Source: Bradyrhizobium xenonodulans (GTDB taxonomy: Bacteria; Pseudomonadota; Alphaproteobacteria; Rhizobiales; Xanthobacteraceae). From it: a stretch of 64,000 nucleotides of DNA. Of the stretch, positions 48,301 to 57,305 are shown one piece after another. A program made the translations under genes and the position numbers. The notes beneath the pieces are model-generated. The model ran no database searches, was not told the origin of the DNA, and saw nothing but the letters and a program-made list of their open reading frames with translations. The DNA lies in contig NZ_CP089391.1 in the NCBI RefSeq assembly GCF_027594865.1, forward strand, positions 496,001 to 560,000. Reading direction: 5' to 3'. Numbering within the stretch: position 1 is the first letter of the stretch; each line of letters begins with the position of its first letter.

Positions 48301-50358
48301 ATGAAAATGGGGGTGGGAATGTCCGGGCGTATCGCGTCGCCGTCGAAGCGCACAATATTTCCGACCCTCAGGTTCCGCGCCAAGATTATTTTGGGCTTTG
48401 CCGTCGTGCTGGCGATCTCCGCCGGCAGCATGGCCTTCTCCTATTTCGGCTTTGAGCGGGTCTCGTCCGGGGTCGGGTCCTACCGCACCAGCGTTTCGGA
48501 GGCCGACCTCGCCCGCAACATCGACCGCGAGCTGCTAGGCTATCGTTCGGCCGCCCGCTATTTCGTGGTGACCGGCAAGGAAGACGACGCAAAGGCGGCG
48601 CTGGATGCCGAGGCCAGCCTGAAGAATGCCATCGATCAGGCGATCAAGAATGCCAAGAAGCCGGCGCGGCTGGAGAGCCTCGACAAGCTCGCCAAGGAGT
48701 TTTCCAATTTCTCGGCGACCTTCGCCAAGATTCTGCAGGCCAAGCGCGACAGCGCGCTTCTGGTCCAGAACCAGCTCCAGCGCAACGCGAACCTCCTGAA
48801 ATACAAGCTCGACGACATCGGCAACAATGCCTCCGACGCGGAAGCGCAGGCGATCGAGTTCGGCACCAAGCAGGTCAACGCCCAGTTCCAGACCGCCAGT
48901 GCGGCGGCGAACAATTTCATCCTCAACTCGGACCAGGCCGTCGGAGCCAGTGCGATGGCACGGCTGAAATTCGTCGAGAACTCGCTCGGCGCGGTCTACT
49001 CCATGGACGACAAGATCGTCGCCGGTTTGAAGGACGCCAAGGCGCTGCTCGTGGCCTATCGCGAGTCGCTGGAGAAGCTGATCGCCAATGCCAAGCTGGT
49101 CGACGAGCTCGTGACCGAGATGAGCGGCTCGGCCGGTGCGATCCTGCAAGGAGCGACCGCCATGAAGGCGGACCTCGTCGCCGAACAGCAGCGGCTGGAT
49201 TCCGAGTCGGAGGCGACCATCGGGCGGACCGAGCAGCTCGTGCTGATGCTGGCCGTCGGCGGTACGCTGCTCGGTGCGATGCTGGCCTTCCTGCTCGGCA
49301 CCGGCATTTCGCGCCCGATGATCGCGATGTGCAAGGCGATGCGCGAGCTGGCGTCCGGCAATTTCGACGTCGTGCTGCCGGGGCTCGGCCGCAAGGACGA
49401 GATCGGCGAGATGGCCGGCGCGGTTGAAGAGTTCAAGGTGCAGGCCGTGGCCAAGGCGGAGCGCGATGCCGCCGCCAGCGAAGCCCAGAATAGAGAGCAG
49501 GCCGCGAGCCGCCGCTCCGAGCTGATTCGCTTTGCAGACGATTTCGAAAGCGCCGTCGGCGCCATCGTCTCCAACGTCTCATCCTCCGCCGTGCAGCTCG
49601 AATCGGCTGCGTCCACCCTGACGCGTACGGCCGAGACCACGCAGAGCCTGTCGAGCCAGGTTGCCGACGTGTCCGAGCAGGCCTCTTCCAACATGCAGTC
49701 GGTCGCGACCGCGACCGAAGAGCTGTCGGCTTCGGTCGAAGAGATCGGCCGCCAGGTCCGCGACTCCAGCCGCATTGCCGAAGCTGCCGTGGTCCAGGCC
49801 AAGGAAACCGATACGCGTATCGGCAAGCTATCCCACGCCGCTCAGCAGATCGGAGAGGTGGTCAAGCTGATCACGGCGATTGCCGAGCAGACCAACCTTC
49901 TCGCGCTCAACGCCACCATCGAGGCGGCGCGCGCCGGCGAGGCCGGCCGCGGCTTTGCGGTGGTCGCCAGCGAGGTGAAGTCCCTGGCCAGCCAGACCGC
50001 GAAAGCCACCGACGAGATTTCCTCGCACATCACGGGCATGCAGGGTGCCACGGCCGAATCGGTCGCCGCGATCAAGGAGATCGGCGCGACCATCGGCCAG
50101 ATTTCGTCGATCTCGACCTCGATCGCGAGCGCGGTGGAAGAGCAGGGCGCGGCGACCCAGGAGATCGCCCGCAGCGTCCAGACCGTCGCGCAGGGCACCC
50201 AGACCGCCGCCACCGATATCGGCCAGGTCAACCGCGGCGCCGCCGAAACCGGCTCAGCCTCGGAAGAGGTGCTGAACTCGGCCAAGACCCTCTCCAGCGA
50301 AAGCAACCGCCTGCGCGCCGAGCTCGATCGGTTCATGGCGAATATCCGGGCGGCGTAA
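48301..50358 (+). CDS. Methyl-accepting chemotaxis protein with helical-bundle sensor, first of a tandem pair
   Basis: The 685-residue chemoreceptor has TM1 at about 27-48 and a long four-helix-bundle periplasmic sensor at about 50-305. TM2 lies at about 310-332, HAMP at about 335-385 ([41 protein letters not shown]), and the signalling domain ends near 680. The conserved hairpin tip is intact ([37 protein letters not shown]). No CheR-binding pentapeptide is seen at the C-terminus. An internal ATG at 48319 is an equally likely start. The ligand is unknown. Part of its DNA is identical to the next gene. Confidence 0.9.
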
Positions 50359-50560: not shown

Positions 50561-52606
50561 ATGGGGTGGGGAATGCCCGTCAAGTCGAAACCGAACACAT
50601 CGAAGCTGCTCACCTTGCGTTTTCGCGCAAAAATCATCCTCGGTTTCGTGGCGGTGCTCGCCATCCTCGCCGTCAGCATGGCTTTTGCCTATTTCGGCTT
50701 CGAGCGGATCCAGGGCGCCGTAGCCTCCTACCGAACCAGCGTGTCCGAAGCGGATCTTGCGCGAACCGTCGATCGCGAGCTGATCAGCTACCAGGGGCTG
50801 GCGCGGGCCTATACGATGACCGGCGCGGCCGATGACGAGACCGCGGCCAAGGCGGCCGAAGAGAATCTGAAGGGCGCGATCGCCAAGTCGATGGCCGCGA
50901 CCACCGGTGCGGCGCGCCGCGAGCAGGTCGGCAAGCTCGAGGCCGAGTTCCAGAGCTTTACAAAGGTGTTCAGCGAGATCATCACGCTGACGCGCGCGAA
51001 CAACAAGATCGCGGCGGACGAGCTCAACAGCGTCGGCAACAAGATTCGCTTCAAATTCGACGATCTCGCCGACACCGCGGCGCTCGCCGGGCTCGCATCG
51101 GTTCAGACCACGGCCAAGGACATCACGTCGCAATATCTGGCGGTTTCCACCTCGGTCAGCGCCTTCGTCGCCAAGCCGGAGCCGAAGACCGCCGACGGCG
51201 TGATCGCCCGTATCAAGTTCCTGGAGACCCTGCTGGTCTCGATCTATGCCAACGACCAGAAGATCACTGACCGCGTCACCGAGATCGGCAATCTGCTGAA
51301 GCAGTACCGCACCTCCTTCTCGAAGCTCACCGAGAACGTGAAAGTCATCGTCAAGTCGAACGGCGAGATGACCAAGACCGCGGCGACCATCCTGAAGCTC
51401 TCGGCCGAGCTGAAGTCGGATCTCTCAGCCGATCAGCAGCGCATCGAGGCGGGTGCCAATGCCACCATCGTCGAGACCGAGCGGCTGATGCTGATGATGG
51501 CGCTGGGCGGCCTCACCATCGGCGCCGTGCTGGCCCTGATGCTCGGCAACGGCATTTCGCGCCCGATGATCGCGATGTGCAAGGCGATGCGCGAGCTGGC
51601 GTCCGGCAATTTCGACGTCGTGCTGCCGGGGCTCGGCCGCAAGGACGAGATCGGCGAGATGGCCGGCGCGGTTGAAGAGTTCAAGGTGCAGGCCGTGGCC
51701 AAGGCGGAGCGCGATGCCGCCGCCAGCGAAGCCCAGAATAGAGAGCAGGCCGCGAGCCGCCGCTCCGAGCTGATTCGCTTTGCAGACGATTTCGAAAGCG
51801 CCGTCGGCGCCATCGTCTCCAACGTCTCATCCTCCGCCGTGCAGCTCGAATCGGCTGCGTCCACGCTGACGCGTACGGCCGAGACCACGCAGAGCCTGTC
51901 GAACCAGGTCGCCGGCGTCTCCGAGCAGGCCTCCAGCAACATGCAATCGGTCGCAACCGCGACCGAAGAGCTGTCGGCTTCGGTCGAAGAGATCGGCCGT
52001 CAGGTCCGCGACTCCAGCCGCATTGCCGAAGCTGCCGTGGTCCAGGCCAAGGAAACCGATACGCGTATCGGCAAGCTGTCCCATGCCGCTCAGCAGATCG
52101 GCGAAGTCGTCAAGCTGATCACGGCGATTGCCGAGCAGACCAACCTTCTGGCGCTCAACGCCACCATCGAGGCGGCACGTGCCGGCGAGGCCGGCCGTGG
52201 CTTTGCGGTGGTCGCCAGCGAAGTGAAGTCGCTGGCGAGCCAGACGGCGAAGGCGACGGACGAAATCTCCTCCCACATCATGGGGATGCAGGGCGCAACC
52301 GCAGAGTCGGTCGCCGCGATCAAGGAGATTGGTGCGACCATCGGCCAGATCTCGTCGATCTCGACGTCGATTGCCAGCGCCGTCGAGCAGCAGGGTGCGG
52401 CGACGCAGGAGATCGCGCGCAGCGTCCAGACCGTGGCGCAGGGCACCCAGACCGCCGCCACCGATATCGGCCAGGTCAACCGCGGCGCCGCCGAAACCGG
52501 CTCGGCCTCGGAAGAGGTGCTGAACTCGGCCAGGTCGCTGTCATCGGAAAGCACCCGCCTGCGCGCCGAGCTCGATCGGTTCATGGGGAATATCCGGGCG
52601 GCGTAG
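50561..52606 (+). CDS. Methyl-accepting chemotaxis protein, second of a tandem pair
   Basis: The 681-residue chemoreceptor has the same layout as its neighbour: TM1 about 21-43, a helical periplasmic sensor to about 305, TM2 about 308-330, HAMP and the signalling domain. The sensor halves have diverged strongly, while the signalling halves are near-identical, including 314 bp of perfect DNA identity from HAMP onward (51551-51864). So the two receptors probably sense different ligands through a common output. A start at 50573 is possible. Both genes begin with the same ATG-rich GGGGTGGGGA pattern. Confidence 0.9.
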   Translation: MGWGMPVKSKPNTSKLLTLRFRAKIILGFVAVLAILAVSMAFAYFGFERIQGAVASYRTSVSEADLARTVDRELISYQGLARAYTMTGAADDETAAKAAEENLKGAIAKSMAATTGAARREQVGKLEAEFQSFTKVFSEIITLTRANNKIAADELNSVGNKIRFKFDDLADTAALAGLASVQTTAKDITSQYLAVSTSVSAFVAKPEPKTADGVIARIKFLETLLVSIYANDQKITDRVTEIGNLLKQYRTSFSKLTENVKVIVKSNGEMTKTAATILKLSAELKSDLSADQQRIEAGANATIVETERLMLMMALGGLTIGAVLALMLGNGISRPMIAMCKAMRELASGNFDVVLPGLGRKDEIGEMAGAVEEFKVQAVAKAERDAAASEAQNREQAASRRSELIRFADDFESAVGAIVSNVSSSAVQLESAASTLTRTAETTQSLSNQVAGVSEQASSNMQSVATATEELSASVEEIGRQVRDSSRIAEAAVVQAKETDTRIGKLSHAAQQIGEVVKLITAIAEQTNLLALNATIEAARAGEAGRGFAVVASEVKSLASQTAKATDEISSHIMGMQGATAESVAAIKEIGATIGQISSISTSIASAVEQQGAATQEIARSVQTVAQGTQTAATDIGQVNRGAAETGSASEEVLNSARSLSSESTRLRAELDRFMGNIRAA

Positions 52607-52718: not shown

Positions 52719-53105
52719 TCACTCCCTCCCGAACGCCCGCTTCAATTCCACCTTCGCCCGCTCCAGCCGCGTGCGTTGTGTTTTCGGCAGCGTCTTGCCG
52801 GCACGATTGATGTAGAAGGTCAGCATCGACAATGCCGATCGGTAGGCGCCGGTCTTGCGGCGCGCGCTGTGCTCGGCCGAGCGCTTCAGCGAGGCCGCGA
52901 TCCTCCTTGCGCTGGTCAGCTTGAACACGCCTGGCTTGAGGTCGAGCGCATCGCTCTCCCTGGTCACGCGCTGCGACCAGCGCTTTGGCGTGGCGCGGTT
53001 CGTCCTCTTGCGCGCAGTGGTGCTACGCCTCGCGCTGGTCTTCCTGTGTGTCGTCTTTCGCGCGCCAGCTTTCGGCGAATGTGTCGTCTTTCTGACGTGA
53101 GCCAT
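52719..53105 (-). CDS. DUF3175 basic protein, probable stress protein
   Basis: The 128-residue protein is very basic. A Lys/Arg/Thr/Ser/His-rich N-terminal tail (about 1-40) is followed by the DUF3175 core (KRWSQRVTRESDALDLKPGVFKLTSARRIAASLKRSAEHSARRK and onward, ending KVELKRAFGRE). The composition suggests nucleic-acid binding. The family function is unknown. The ATG has AAGGAG upstream, and a perfect EcfG promoter ends 28 bases before it, so induction in the general stress response is likely. Confidence 0.8.
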   Translation of the reverse strand: MAHVRKTTHSPKAGARKTTHRKTSARRSTTARKRTNRATPKRWSQRVTRESDALDLKPGVFKLTSARRIAASLKRSAEHSARRKTGAYRSALSMLTFYINRAGKTLPKTQRTRLERAKVELKRAFGRE

Positions 53106-53132
53106 GCATCAACTCCTTGCGGCTCCATCGGA

Positions 53133-53157
53133 AACGGACGGTCCCAGCAGGCGTTCC
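53133..53157 (-). promoter_or_regulatory. Putative EcfG promoter for the DUF3175 gene, perfect consensus
   Basis: On the minus strand GGAAC (53157-53153), 16 bases, CGTT (53136-53133). Its -35 lies 4 bases from the -35 of the opposite promoter at 53162. Confidence 0.65.
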
Positions 53158-53161
53158 TGGG

Positions 53162-53186
53162 GGAACCTGCCCTTGCCGCGGACGTT
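53162..53186 (+). promoter_or_regulatory. Putative EcfG promoter for the MFS-otsB operon, perfect consensus
   Basis: GGAAC (53162-53166), 16 bases, CGTT (53183-53186). It lies about 100 bases before the MFS gene start at 53288. Confidence 0.65.
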
Positions 53187-53287
53187 GTCGCAGGTGGCAG
53201 GCAGAATGCCGCACCCCCATGATCGGATCAGCCTCGCCCACATCATGTGAACCGGGGCCACCTTCATTGGTCAAACGCAACAACGCG

Positions 53288-54775
53288 ATGGAATTGCAGC
53301 AAAGCCCAGCGCCGAACTATGGATCTGCGATCCCGGCGGCGGCCGCGACCGACCGCATCGTCGAGACCAGCATTCCCTCGCGGCTCGATGCGCTGCCGTG
53401 GAGCGGTTTTCACACCCGTGTCGTGCTGGCGCTCGGGATCACCTGGATTCTCGACGGGCTCGAGGTCACGCTGGCCGGCGCGCTCTCCGGCGCGCTCAAG
53501 CAGAGCCCGATGCTGCAGTTCTCCAATCTCGATCTCGGTATTGCCAACTCGGCCTATCTCGCCGGTGCGGTGCTTGGTGCGCTCGGCTTCGGCTGGCTTA
53601 CCGATCGGATTGGCCGCAAGAAATTGTTCTTCATTACCCTTGCCCTCTATCTCTCGGCGACGGCGGCGACCGCGTTGTCGTGGAATGTCGCGAGCTACGC
53701 GCTGTTCCGTTTCCTCACCGGCGCCGGCATCGGCGGCGAATACACCGCGATCAATTCGACGATTCAGGAGCTGGTGCCGGCGCGCTACCGCGGCTGGACC
53801 GATCTCGTGATCAACGGCAGCTTCTGGATCGGTGCCGCAATGGGCGCGGTGGCGGCCATCGTGCTGCTCGATCCCGCAACGATCGGCCCCGATCTCGGCT
53901 GGCGCCTTGCTTATCTCATCGGCGCGGCCATCGGCCTCGTGGTGTTGCTGATGCGGATGTGGATCCCGGAAAGTCCACGCTGGCTGATGATTCACGGCCG
54001 GCCCGATCAGGCTCATGCCATCGTCGACGAGATCGAGCGCTCGGTGATCGGACACGACCAGGATACGAGCGATGGCCGCTTCACGAAGATCCGCCTTCGG
54101 ATGCGCAGCCACACCCCGATCCGCGAGGTCGTGCACACGCTGTTCTCCACCTATCGCCAGCGCGCGCTGGTCGGCCTGGTGCTGATGAGCGCGCAGGCCT
54201 TCTTCTACAACGCGATCTTCTTCACTTTCGCCCTGATACTGACCGACTTCTACGGCATCAGTGCCGACCAGGTCGGCTGGTACATCCTGCCGTTCGCCGC
54301 CGGCAATTTCTTCGGCCCGCTGCTGCTCGGCCGTCTGTTCGACACGCTCGGCCGACGCGTCATGATCATGTTCACCTACGGCGTGTCGGGCCTGCTGCTG
54401 GCGCTCTCGGGCTATCTGTTCTCGATCGGCGCGCTGAGCGCGCAGGGGCAGACGATTGCCTGGATGGTCATCTTTTTCTTTGCCTCGCCCGCCGCGAGCG
54501 CGGCTTACCTGACCGTCAGCGAGACGTTCCCCTTGGAAGTGCGCGCGCTGGCGATCGCGGTGTTCTATGCGGTCGGCACCGGCATCGGCGGCGTGATCGG
54601 ACCCGCGCTGTTCGGTGCGCTGATCGATACCGGATCACGCACCAGCGTGTTCGCCGGCTATCTGCTGGGGGCCTTCCTGATGATCGCGGCGGCGATCGTG
54701 GCGTGGCGCTACGCCGTCTCCGCGGAACGCAAATCGCTCGAACAAATCGCGCGGCCGCTTGCCTTTATGGAGTAG
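53288..54775 (+). CDS. MFS transporter (sugar-porter-like), stress operon
   Basis: The 495-residue protein has about twelve transmembrane helices in two halves. The intracellular MFS motif is GWLTDRIGRKKLFF after TM2, and its second-half counterpart is GRLFDTLGRRVMIM. PESPRWLMIHGR, typical of sugar and metabolite porters, follows TM6. The frame is open to 53117, but that part is Arg/Cys-rich and lies over the promoter, so the ATG at 53288 is used. otsB begins 3 bases after its stop, so the two are co-transcribed from an EcfG-type promoter. The substrate is unknown; trehalose, a compatible solute or an acid are possible. Confidence 0.85.
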   Translation: MELQQSPAPNYGSAIPAAAATDRIVETSIPSRLDALPWSGFHTRVVLALGITWILDGLEVTLAGALSGALKQSPMLQFSNLDLGIANSAYLAGAVLGALGFGWLTDRIGRKKLFFITLALYLSATAATALSWNVASYALFRFLTGAGIGGEYTAINSTIQELVPARYRGWTDLVINGSFWIGAAMGAVAAIVLLDPATIGPDLGWRLAYLIGAAIGLVVLLMRMWIPESPRWLMIHGRPDQAHAIVDEIERSVIGHDQDTSDGRFTKIRLRMRSHTPIREVVHTLFSTYRQRALVGLVLMSAQAFFYNAIFFTFALILTDFYGISADQVGWYILPFAAGNFFGPLLLGRLFDTLGRRVMIMFTYGVSGLLLALSGYLFSIGALSAQGQTIAWMVIFFFASPAASAAYLTVSETFPLEVRALAIAVFYAVGTGIGGVIGPALFGALIDTGSRTSVFAGYLLGAFLMIAAAIVAWRYAVSAERKSLEQIARPLAFME

Positions 54776-54778
54776 ACT

Positions 54779-55603
54779 ATGAAATCGGAACTCGCTGAAC
54801 TGGATCAGAAGCGCACCATGGTCGACGATGATGAAGCGCCCGACGCGGTGCCGGTGCCGCATGCACTCGTGCCGCATCTGGGCGAGACCGCGATCCTGCT
54901 CGATATCGACGGCACGCTGCTCGACCTGATGCCGACGCCGCGCGAGGTGTGGGTGCCGCCGGGCCTGTCGGAAACGCTGAACCGGTTGACGGAGCGCACC
55001 TCGGGCGCGCTGGCAATGGTCAGCGGCCGCTCGCTCAACGACATCGACCTGATCTTCGCGCCTGACGTGTTTCGCGCGGTCGCAGGTCACGGCGCGGAGA
55101 TGCGCTTGTCCGTGGACAATGAAGCGGACGATGTGCATGCGCCGCCGCTGGACAAGGAGCTGAAGCGGCGTCTGGCTGCGATCGCAAAGCTCAGCCCCGG
55201 CATTCTGCTCGAGGACAAAGGCTATTCGCTGGCGTTGCATTATCGCCTCGCGCCGCACGCGGAGAAGGCGATCTACGAAGCTGTCTCGCTGATCCGCGCC
55301 GACCTGCCCAACGCGCCGATCGAAGTGCTGCCGGGCAAGTTCGTTTGCGAGATCAAGCATTCCGGTTTCACCAAGGCAACCGGCGTGCGCGAACTGATGA
55401 AGCATGAACCCTTCAAAGGGCGCCGTCCGATCTTCATCGGCGACGACGTCACCGATGAAACGGTGTTCGCGATCATGCCCGACATGAACGGGCTGTCTTT
55501 CTCGGTCGGTCGCCGCGCCATGGGCGTCAACGGGCATTTCGATGCGCCGAACGATGTGCGCGCGTTCCTGGCGCGTCTGCTCGACGACACAAGGTTGGAA
55601 TAA
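54779..55603 (+). CDS. otsB: Trehalose-6-phosphate phosphatase
   Basis: This 274-residue HAD-superfamily enzyme dephosphorylates trehalose 6-phosphate to trehalose. Motif I is ILLDIDGTLLDL with nucleophile Asp42 and acid/base Asp44. Later motifs include MVSGRSLNDIDLIF, GHGAEMRL, EVLPGKFVCEIK and the metal motif FIGDDVTDETVF. The length is normal. It follows the MFS gene by 3 bases, so it shares that EcfG-type promoter. otsA, about 240 bases downstream, supplies its substrate. Confidence 0.95.
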   Translation: MKSELAELDQKRTMVDDDEAPDAVPVPHALVPHLGETAILLDIDGTLLDLMPTPREVWVPPGLSETLNRLTERTSGALAMVSGRSLNDIDLIFAPDVFRAVAGHGAEMRLSVDNEADDVHAPPLDKELKRRLAAIAKLSPGILLEDKGYSLALHYRLAPHAEKAIYEAVSLIRADLPNAPIEVLPGKFVCEIKHSGFTKATGVRELMKHEPFKGRRPIFIGDDVTDETVFAIMPDMNGLSFSVGRRAMGVNGHFDAPNDVRAFLARLLDDTRLE

Positions 55604-55783
55604 GGCACTGACATCTCGGAGCCACATTGTCGTCTGCGGTGTTCCCTTGTGCGCGCAATTGATGCTGCGCACCACCGACCAATAAAACAGACTTTGTCGA
55701 GGAAAATCGGTGGGTTCCCGCAAGGGAAACCTGTTCCAATGCGTGCGCCCGATTTTGGTGTCAATTCGTGCAAATGATGATCA

Positions 55784-55808
55784 GGAACCATATTGATGAA
55801 CGGCAGTT
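55784..55808 (+). promoter_or_regulatory. Putative EcfG promoter for otsA
   Basis: GGAAC (55784-55788), 16 bases, AGTT (55805-55808); one mismatch to the -10. It lies 34 bases before the chosen otsA start at 55842. The same variant occurs at 950-974. Confidence 0.5.
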
Positions 55809-55841: not shown

Positions 55842-57305
55842 GTGAACTTAGTCGTCGTTTCAAATCGAGTTGCGCGCGGTAAACCCAACGAGCCCATGAC
55901 GGGCGGCCTTGCTGCGGCCTTGCTTCCCGTGGTGGAGCATTCGGGGGCGATCTGGGTGGGGTCATCCGGCCGCGTGCGCGACGGCCATCAGAAAGAACCG
56001 TTCGCCGAGATCGAAGCGCTCGGCTCGGGCGCGATCGCGACGCTGGATCTGCCGGCGGCGCATTACGGCGGCTATTACGAAGGCTTTGCCAATTCGGCGC
56101 TGTGGCCGGCGCTGCATTCGCGCAGCGATCTGATCCGCGTCTCGCGCGAGGACTATGTCAGCTACCGCGAGGTCAACGCCTTCATGGCGCGTGCCTTGAT
56201 GCGCTTCCGGAAAACCAAAACGGCGTTCTGGGTGCAGGATTATCATTTCCTCGCGCTCGGCGCGGAACTGCGCGACCTCGGTGTCGACGATCCGATCGGT
56301 TTCTTCCTGCACACGCCGTGGCCGGTCACTGCCGTGATGCAGGGCGTGCCCAATCATCGCGAGCTGATCACGGCGATGCTCGCCTATGATCTGCTCGGGT
56401 TCCAGACCAACGAGGATTGCCAGAATTTTCTCGGCTATGTTGCGGGCGAGCTCGGCCTCGCCGTCGAAGACGGCGTTGCGATCTCGCAGCACGGCCGCAC
56501 GCGCTGCGAGGTGTTTCCGATCGGCATCGATGCGGAGAAGTTCGCAGCCTATGCCGCGAAGTCCGCCTCGCATCCCGACGTGTCGCGGCTGCGCCGCAGC
56601 CTCAACGGCGAGCGGCTCGCGATCGGCGTCGACCGGCTCGACTATTCCAAGGGTCTCGTCAATCGCATCAGCGCGTTCGACCGGCTCTGGACCGAGCAGC
56701 CGCAGTTTGCGCGCAGCATCTCGCTGCTCCAGATCGCCAACCCTTCGCGCGGCGCGATCGAGGCCTATGGCAACCTCCAGAACGAGGTCGCGCGGCTCGT
56801 CACCGACGTCAACGGCCGCCATGGCGAGGTCGACTGGACGCCGATCCGCTATCTGAACAAGGGTTTCAGCCAGGCCGTGCTCGCGGGTCTCTATCGCACC
56901 GCGCAGGTCGGCGTGGTGACGCCGCTGCATGACGGCATGAACCTCGTCGCCAAGGAATATGTCGCCGCGCAAAATCCGGCCGATCCCGGCGTGCTGGTGC
57001 TGTCGAAGTTCGCCGGCGCCGCCAACGAGCTCGAAACGGCTTTGCTGGTCAATCCGCACGACATCGACGGCATGGCGCGCGCGATCGCGGTTGCGGCCGC
57101 GATGCCACTCACCGAGCGCAAGATGCGCTGGGACGCGATGATGAAGAAGCTGCGCGGCCACACCATCCAGCAATGGTCCGCCGACTTCGTCGCCGAGCTC
57201 GAGAAGAGCCGGACGCAGAAGGCCGCAGTTGCGCCGCTCGCCTCCCAGCCACCGCAGGCGCTGCGCTGGCTGAAGTCGGCGATCTCCGGCGTAAGGCTGA
57301 TTTAG
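55842..57305 (+). CDS. otsA: Trehalose-6-phosphate synthase
   Basis: This GT20 glycosyltransferase joins UDP-glucose and glucose 6-phosphate. The GTG at 55842 is chosen because AGGAGG lies 9 bases before it and the family starts with the LVVVSNRVA strand; an ATG at 55821 would add seven residues. Typical segments are MTGGLAAALLPVV, VWVQDYHFLALGAELR, GFFLHTPWP, IGVDRLDYSKGLVNRI and VTPLHDGMNLVAKEYVAAQ. The length (487 aa) is normal. It has its own EcfG-like promoter. The stop codon lies in a 15-bp tandem duplication (57293-57322). Confidence 0.95.
   Translation: MNLVVVSNRVARGKPNEPMTGGLAAALLPVVEHSGAIWVGSSGRVRDGHQKEPFAEIEALGSGAIATLDLPAAHYGGYYEGFANSALWPALHSRSDLIRVSREDYVSYREVNAFMARALMRFRKTKTAFWVQDYHFLALGAELRDLGVDDPIGFFLHTPWPVTAVMQGVPNHRELITAMLAYDLLGFQTNEDCQNFLGYVAGELGLAVEDGVAISQHGRTRCEVFPIGIDAEKFAAYAAKSASHPDVSRLRRSLNGERLAIGVDRLDYSKGLVNRISAFDRLWTEQPQFARSISLLQIANPSRGAIEAYGNLQNEVARLVTDVNGRHGEVDWTPIRYLNKGFSQAVLAGLYRTAQVGVVTPLHDGMNLVAKEYVAAQNPADPGVLVLSKFAGAANELETALLVNPHDIDGMARAIAVAAAMPLTERKMRWDAMMKKLRGHTIQQWSADFVAELEKSRTQKAAVAPLASQPPQALRWLKSAISGVRLI

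Follow-up and report, generated by a model that had tools for sequence, protein, structure and literature searches.

A putative two-way EcfG-type promoter island between a DUF3175 gene and otsC-otsB in Bradyrhizobium

The closest described relative of the locus considered here is the trehalose gene set of Bradyrhizobium diazoefficiens, in which otsC, otsB and otsA lie in that order under the control of the extracytoplasmic function (ECF) sigma factor EcfG, induction of otsCB needs ecfG, and the phenotypes of mutants indicate that OtsC takes up trehalose (PMC8092242). We analyzed a 64,000-nucleotide stretch of the Bradyrhizobium xenonodulans genome (contig NZ_CP089391.1, positions 496,001 to 560,000; hereafter the window, in whose own numbering features are given) that resembles this locus: otsC-otsB is followed by otsA, and a major facilitator superfamily (MFS) transporter gene lies upstream of otsB. 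In the window, a gene of the DUF3175 family diverges from otsC, and two outward-facing copies of the reported EcfG motif, GGAAC-N16-CGTT (PMC3892343), lie at this junction. The accessible text of the B. diazoefficiens account mentions neither a divergent DUF3175 gene nor a paired promoter (PMC8092242).

A back-to-back pair of EcfG-type sites

A motif scan of the window placed the exact outward-facing pair at 53133-53157 on the minus strand (GGAACGCCTGCTGGGACCGTCCGTT) and 53162-53186 on the plus strand (GGAACCTGCCCTTGCCGCGGACGTT), just as an initial annotation of this DNA had described it. In plus-strand reading, the DUF3175-facing site has its -35 box (GTTCC) at 53153-53157 and its -10 box (AACG) at 53133-53136, and the otsC-facing site has GGAAC at 53162-53166 and CGTT at 53183-53186. 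Both sites show the EcfG features that we tested for, namely GGAAC, a 16-17 bp spacer and CGTT with a flexible first base, and their boxes and 16-bp spacers match the sigma-EcfG (RpoE2/SigT/EcfG1) promoter class exactly. Unlike the usual promoter of that class, they stand back to back, with their -35 boxes 4 bp apart (53158-53161) and arranged as an imperfect inverted repeat. Setting transcription starts ~7 nt past each -10 box gives expected starts at ~53125 and ~53193. The DUF3175 start codon (53105, minus strand) would then follow a leader of ~20 nt in which AAGGAG can be read, and the otsC start codon (ATG 53288, plus strand) would lie ~95 nt past its expected start.

The same genome has adjacent genes for PhyR, NepR and a sigma factor of the EcfG type (C1:1043825-1045634). 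PhyR and the sigma factor scored above NCBIfam cut-offs, and NepR scored above the Pfam cut-off but below the NCBIfam one; the sigma factor is named EcfG because it adjoins nepR and phyR. From published work on relatives, we infer that EcfG uses both sites. Bradyrhizobium is rich in ECF sigma factors, with 17 in B. japonicum (PMC3420878), and one of these or an EcfG paralogue might read both sites in place of canonical EcfG. We consider this very improbable, given that the motif is the one published for EcfG (PMC3892343) and that otsCB is EcfG-dependent in the related B. diazoefficiens (PMC8092242).

Occurrences of the motif were then set against chance. GGAACN15-18CGTT has four matches in the window versus 1.84 expected, and because 12 of 100 window shuffles reached four, single matches are not significant. 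Across the genome (8.28 Mb, one contig), 150 exact sites (79 on the plus and 71 on the minus strand) compare with 162 for the pattern read backwards. These counts predict 79 x 71 x 31 / 8.28 Mb = 0.02 outward pairs within 30 bp by chance. The initial annotation had expected a genome scan to show enrichment upstream of genes. Of the first 30 sites listed, seven were intergenic with the start of a coding-like open reading frame (ORF) within 250 bp (reversed-pattern control, 0/30) and 11 fell within a coding-like ORF (control, 22/30). The gene caller behind this placement test was crude and classed even the two sites of the pair as coding. The probable cause is the upstream TTG start of the OtsC ORF, whose longer, mechanically derived version (53117-54775) begins at TTG 53117, ahead of the promoter. 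A motif match alone is thus weak evidence, and the case for the two promoters rests on their conservation across the genus. The scan also yielded a second outward pair of exact EcfG-type sites at G000:C1:3943205-3943303, with -35 boxes ~50 bp apart, and two exact sites on opposite strands that overlap almost completely at G000:C1:3719215-3719241.

Conservation and loss within Bradyrhizobium

DUF3175 is present in 49 of 60 sampled Bradyrhizobium genomes, the window's own included, and otsC lies divergently beside it in all 49; the two starts are ~116-1025 bp apart in 48 genomes, and a single genome has 4543 bp between them. Every one of these loci carries a DUF3175-facing GGAAC-N16/17-NGTT site (exact in 37) and an otsC-facing site (exact in 45), and the inexact sites, 12 facing DUF3175 and four facing otsC, deviate solely at the first -10 base. 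Shuffled regions contained on average 0.14 and 0.09 exact sites facing DUF3175 and otsC, respectively (maximum 1), and a reversed-pattern control found 1 and 0; with one mismatch allowed, the shuffle means were 2.19 and 1.59 (maximum 7), versus 49 and 49 observed. Information content, computed from sites with 16-bp spacers alone (46 of the 49 facing DUF3175 and 48 facing otsC), averaged 1.90 and 1.94 bits, respectively, at box positions compared to 0.38 and 0.55 in the spacers, a contrast which indicates that divergence has been ample and that the boxes have been kept. At 63 loci of a second set, which overlaps the 60-genome sample and is not independent of it, a GGAAC/NGTT site faces DUF3175 in 60 and otsC in 61, with CGTT in 34 and 59, respectively. 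The looser -10 box fits a report from Sphingopyxis granuli, in which only three of 79 -35 boxes deviated in AAC while 14 kinds of -10 box occurred (PMC7083833). Together, these comparisons support the view that both promoters have been kept by selection.

The remaining 11 sampled genomes gave no DUF3175 match. Nine of them have an otsC orthologue (82-94% identity), which was not found in the other two (G006 and G033), and the otsC-facing site is exact in all nine. An outward GGAAC/NGTT site is left in only two of the nine (L183 and L184), compared to 37/37 loci with an intact gene (p = 6.7e-07, indicative only because the genomes are related); this comparison took the genomes with short and medium spacing alone, 37 of the 49. 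Exact outward sites showed the same trend (25/37 versus 2/9, p = 0.022), whereas exact otsC-facing sites did not differ (37/37 versus 9/9). When any one mismatch was allowed within 400 bp, some outward match appeared in seven of the nine genomes without intact DUF3175, five of these matches deviating at positions that are invariant in the 49 intact genomes. By this comparison of loci, each site follows the presence of its own gene. Remnants of the gene or of its promoter were seen beside otsC in L181, L183 and L184: L181 retains DUF3175 fragments and its outward site is gone, and the outward site of L183 is followed by a short ORF that starts, by eye, like a Bradyrhizobium DUF3175 tail, with no tblastn match at E < 0.01.

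These patterns bear on whether the promoter facing otsC is the only one of consequence, with the match facing DUF3175 arising incidentally from a G+C-rich inverted repeat. The -35 boxes are indeed imperfect inverted copies of each other, and of the two -10 boxes the DUF3175-facing one is the looser, as the 34 of 63 loci with CGTT attest. We nonetheless find this explanation scarcely credible: the DUF3175-facing site occurs in all 49 genomes, including those with 103-4376 bp between the -35 boxes, it is mostly lost where the gene is lost, and in other genera comparable sites precede DUF3175 in stretches that mostly lack otsC. The junction is therefore best read as an island of two divergent promoters that belongs to the general stress response of Alphaproteobacteria and very probably serves both DUF3175 and otsC-otsB. 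The initial annotation had placed the three genes in one stress regulon; two conserved EcfG-type promoters over DUF3175 and the MFS-otsB pair bear this out, while the use of EcfG itself is drawn from relatives.

Promoter spacing and the trehalose genes

The distance between the two -35 boxes falls into three classes: 24 of the 49 genomes have 3-5 bp, 13 have 13-18 bp and 12 have 103-4376 bp. Even with as much as 4.5 kb between the genes, each of them keeps its own site. An OtsC tree was built from 48 of the 49 rows (L030 was dropped for too little otsC in its stretch, and many of the OtsC sequences are partial); on it, the short and the long class each occupy one side of a well-supported branch, and the three classes need only two changes. 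Short spacing could itself be functional, if RNA polymerase holoenzymes exclude each other across the 4-bp gap and so compete in a way that fixes the ratio of DUF3175 to OtsCB. The predicted starts are ~68 bp apart, so that polymerase footprints should overlap, and gaps of 3-5 or 13-18 bp are the common ones. However, the 12 genomes with gaps >100 bp keep both promoters, which argues that close pairing is needed by neither, and with only two class changes on the tree the short gap may be a single neutral 10-bp deletion. Competition of this kind thus seems unlikely to us, and we regard the 4-bp gap as probably lineage-specific.

The three genes to the right all lie on the plus strand, and their Pfam matches, like that of DUF3175, agree with the identities that the initial annotation had proposed for DUF3175, the MFS transporter and the trehalose phosphatase. 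The otsC-type MFS sugar transporter gene occupies 53288-54775 (Sugar_tr, E 5.1e-44, also MFS_1; search run from 53291), its probable start being ATG 53288. It is named for its family and gene order, as an MFS sugar transporter directly upstream of otsB; orthologues in the sampled genus are 79-95% identical. The earlier claim that the link of this transporter to trehalose under EcfG is undescribed fails, because that part was reported in B. diazoefficiens with the publication of OtsC (PMC8092242). Three bp past otsC lies otsB, for trehalose-6-phosphate phosphatase (54779-55603; Trehalose_PPase PF02358, E 1.9e-27; TIGR00685 above cut-off). The trehalose-6-phosphate synthase gene otsA follows at 55842-57305 (Glyco_transf_20 PF00982, E 1.9e-106; search run from 55821), with GTG 55842, which follows AGGAGG, preferred as the likely start over ATG 55821.

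A third site, absent from the initial annotation, precedes otsA at 55784-55808 on the plus strand (GGAAC-N16-AGTT). A counterpart exists in all 18 loci that reach otsA, and GGAAC-N16-NGTT occurs in 85 of 85 otsA upstream regions, a partly redundant set in which some strains appear twice and which includes the window and a few close relatives outside the genus. The -10 box in these regions is AGTT in 44, TGTT in 40 and CGTT in one. Because the window's copy has AGTT rather than CGTT, we call the site EcfG-like only, though S. granuli shows 14 kinds of -10 box (PMC7083833). Across the 85 regions, two blocks upstream of otsA, 55747-55766 and 55784-55803, show strong conservation, which reaches 80-95% or more in most columns. 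The second block takes in the greater part of the EcfG-like site's spacer, which is thus conserved, unlike those of the other two sites. A conserved spacer together with an extra conserved block suggests that more than EcfG may act there, and an unknown regulator or a second promoter may thus operate upstream of otsA.

From these features we propose that, under stress, PhyR would bind NepR and free sigma-EcfG, which would start transcription leftwards into DUF3175 through the ~20-nt leader and rightwards into otsC-otsB; the third, less canonical site would start otsA. Each promoter would serve its own gene, with neither needing the other nearby, and a single response would make trehalose, import it via OtsC and produce the DUF3175 protein. 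On the other side of DUF3175, the window also contains tandem chemotaxis-receptor-like genes (48301-50358 and 50561-52606) whose C-terminal halves look nearly identical by eye.

The DUF3175 family within and beyond Bradyrhizobium

The window's DUF3175 gene (52719-53105, minus strand) encodes a 128-aa protein that matches PF11373 over profile positions 1-86 of 86 (E 6.5e-39; 132.5 bits versus a cut-off of 27). Its Lys/Arg-rich tail (residues 1-42) and conserved helical domain (43-128) each carry a net charge of +15, +30 in total. An AlphaFold2 model places helices at residues 43-50, 66-79, 87-105 and 108-124, three of the four with high confidence, and gives the basic N-terminal tail low confidence. 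Over 30 aligned sequences of the family, 28 columns are invariant. The Bradyrhizobium members examined have a long basic N-terminal tail, whereas most others have a short one and a few (L058, L061) a long one. The window's protein gave no Pfam match to the HC2 histone-like family (PF07382), which was matched by seven of 120 DUF3175 homologs among the matches listed.

DUF3175 is uncommon across the class, with 18 of 387 genomes (16 above the family cut-off), and more frequent in the order, with 36 of 297, the window's genome being counted in both; it also occurs outside Alphaproteobacteria and in records that bear the labels of other phyla. Among 56 alphaproteobacterial loci from outside Bradyrhizobium, 24 (18 of 38 labels) have GGAAC-N16/17-NGTT within 250 bp upstream of DUF3175, compared to eight on the opposite strand, one with the reversed pattern and none downstream; with CGTT required, the corresponding counts are nine, five, one and zero. 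Seven of the 24 site-bearing loci belong to one genus (g321). None of 15 loci outside the class has an EcfG-like site upstream of DUF3175. The 56 loci (45 + 11, 38 labels) were listed by hand, and the 15 comprise 9 + 6. These two sets leave out L062, L063, L065-L068, the Bradyrhizobium loci, the plasmid loci L207-L211, L203, L204 and L206, the locus-less matches in G522 and G709 and the second copy in G551; a 42-locus comparison omitted L062, L065-L067 and the Bradyrhizobium loci L060, L096 and L097. A tblastn search did not find DUF3175 in L065-L067.

Genes for Ku, LigD, topoisomerase IB or UdgX lie near DUF3175 in some other genera: such neighbours were counted, with no background rate for comparison, in 14 of 76 loci, or 10 of 71 when the plasmid loci that supplied the queries are set aside. 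Those five are large plasmids of Methylovirgula, Rhizobium, Shinella, Roseateles and Sinorhizobium (L207-L211), and in four of them DUF3175 is within 5 kb of DNA-repair or topoisomerase genes. Within that distance, Shinella and Roseateles have ku-ligD (Shinella also a glycine betaine transporter gene), the Rhizobium leguminosarum plasmid has ligD, topoisomerase IB and glgX, and the Sinorhizobium plasmid has topoisomerase IB and glgX; the Methylovirgula plasmid has none of ku, ligD, topoisomerase IB, glgX or a betaine transporter gene there. The same kinds of gene are found in EcfG regulons: that of Sphingomonas melonis Fr1 holds Ku, topoisomerase IB, GlgX and trehalose genes (PMC6599016), and Ku or ku-ligD is included both there and in S. 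granuli (PMC7083833). DUF3175 itself is unnamed in the accessible text of either report (PMC6599016, PMC7083833).

The net charge of +30, the HC2 matches in homologs and the Ku, LigD, topoisomerase IB and UdgX neighbours would fit a basic, nucleic-acid-binding protein by which DNA is protected or organized under stress, a role that is reasonable but that we put forward tentatively, at somewhat less than even likelihood. Broader, and more speculative still, is the notion that DUF3175 is an overlooked, widespread general-stress effector, a small basic helical protein that would coat or organize DNA, so that one paired promoter would start DNA and trehalose protection together. In some rhizobia its gene has end-joining and topoisomerase IB genes nearby, and in Bradyrhizobium, where the protein has a long tail that would be histone-like, it adjoins the trehalose genes. 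Searches of the literature by family name or identifiers found no link between DUF3175 and EcfG, in line with the initial annotation, with the proviso that the tables of Gourion 2009 may carry the gene under a locus tag. DUF3175 as a stress-response gene in its own right is thus the part that looks new.

EcfG-controlled trehalose synthesis is needed for proper infection of soybean by B. diazoefficiens, and further EcfG-controlled functions also add to its competitiveness (PMC8092242). As a putatively co-regulated neighbour of the trehalose genes, DUF3175 is a concrete candidate for one such function, and through its promoter pattern this functionally uncharacterized family gains a role that can be tested throughout Alphaproteobacteria.
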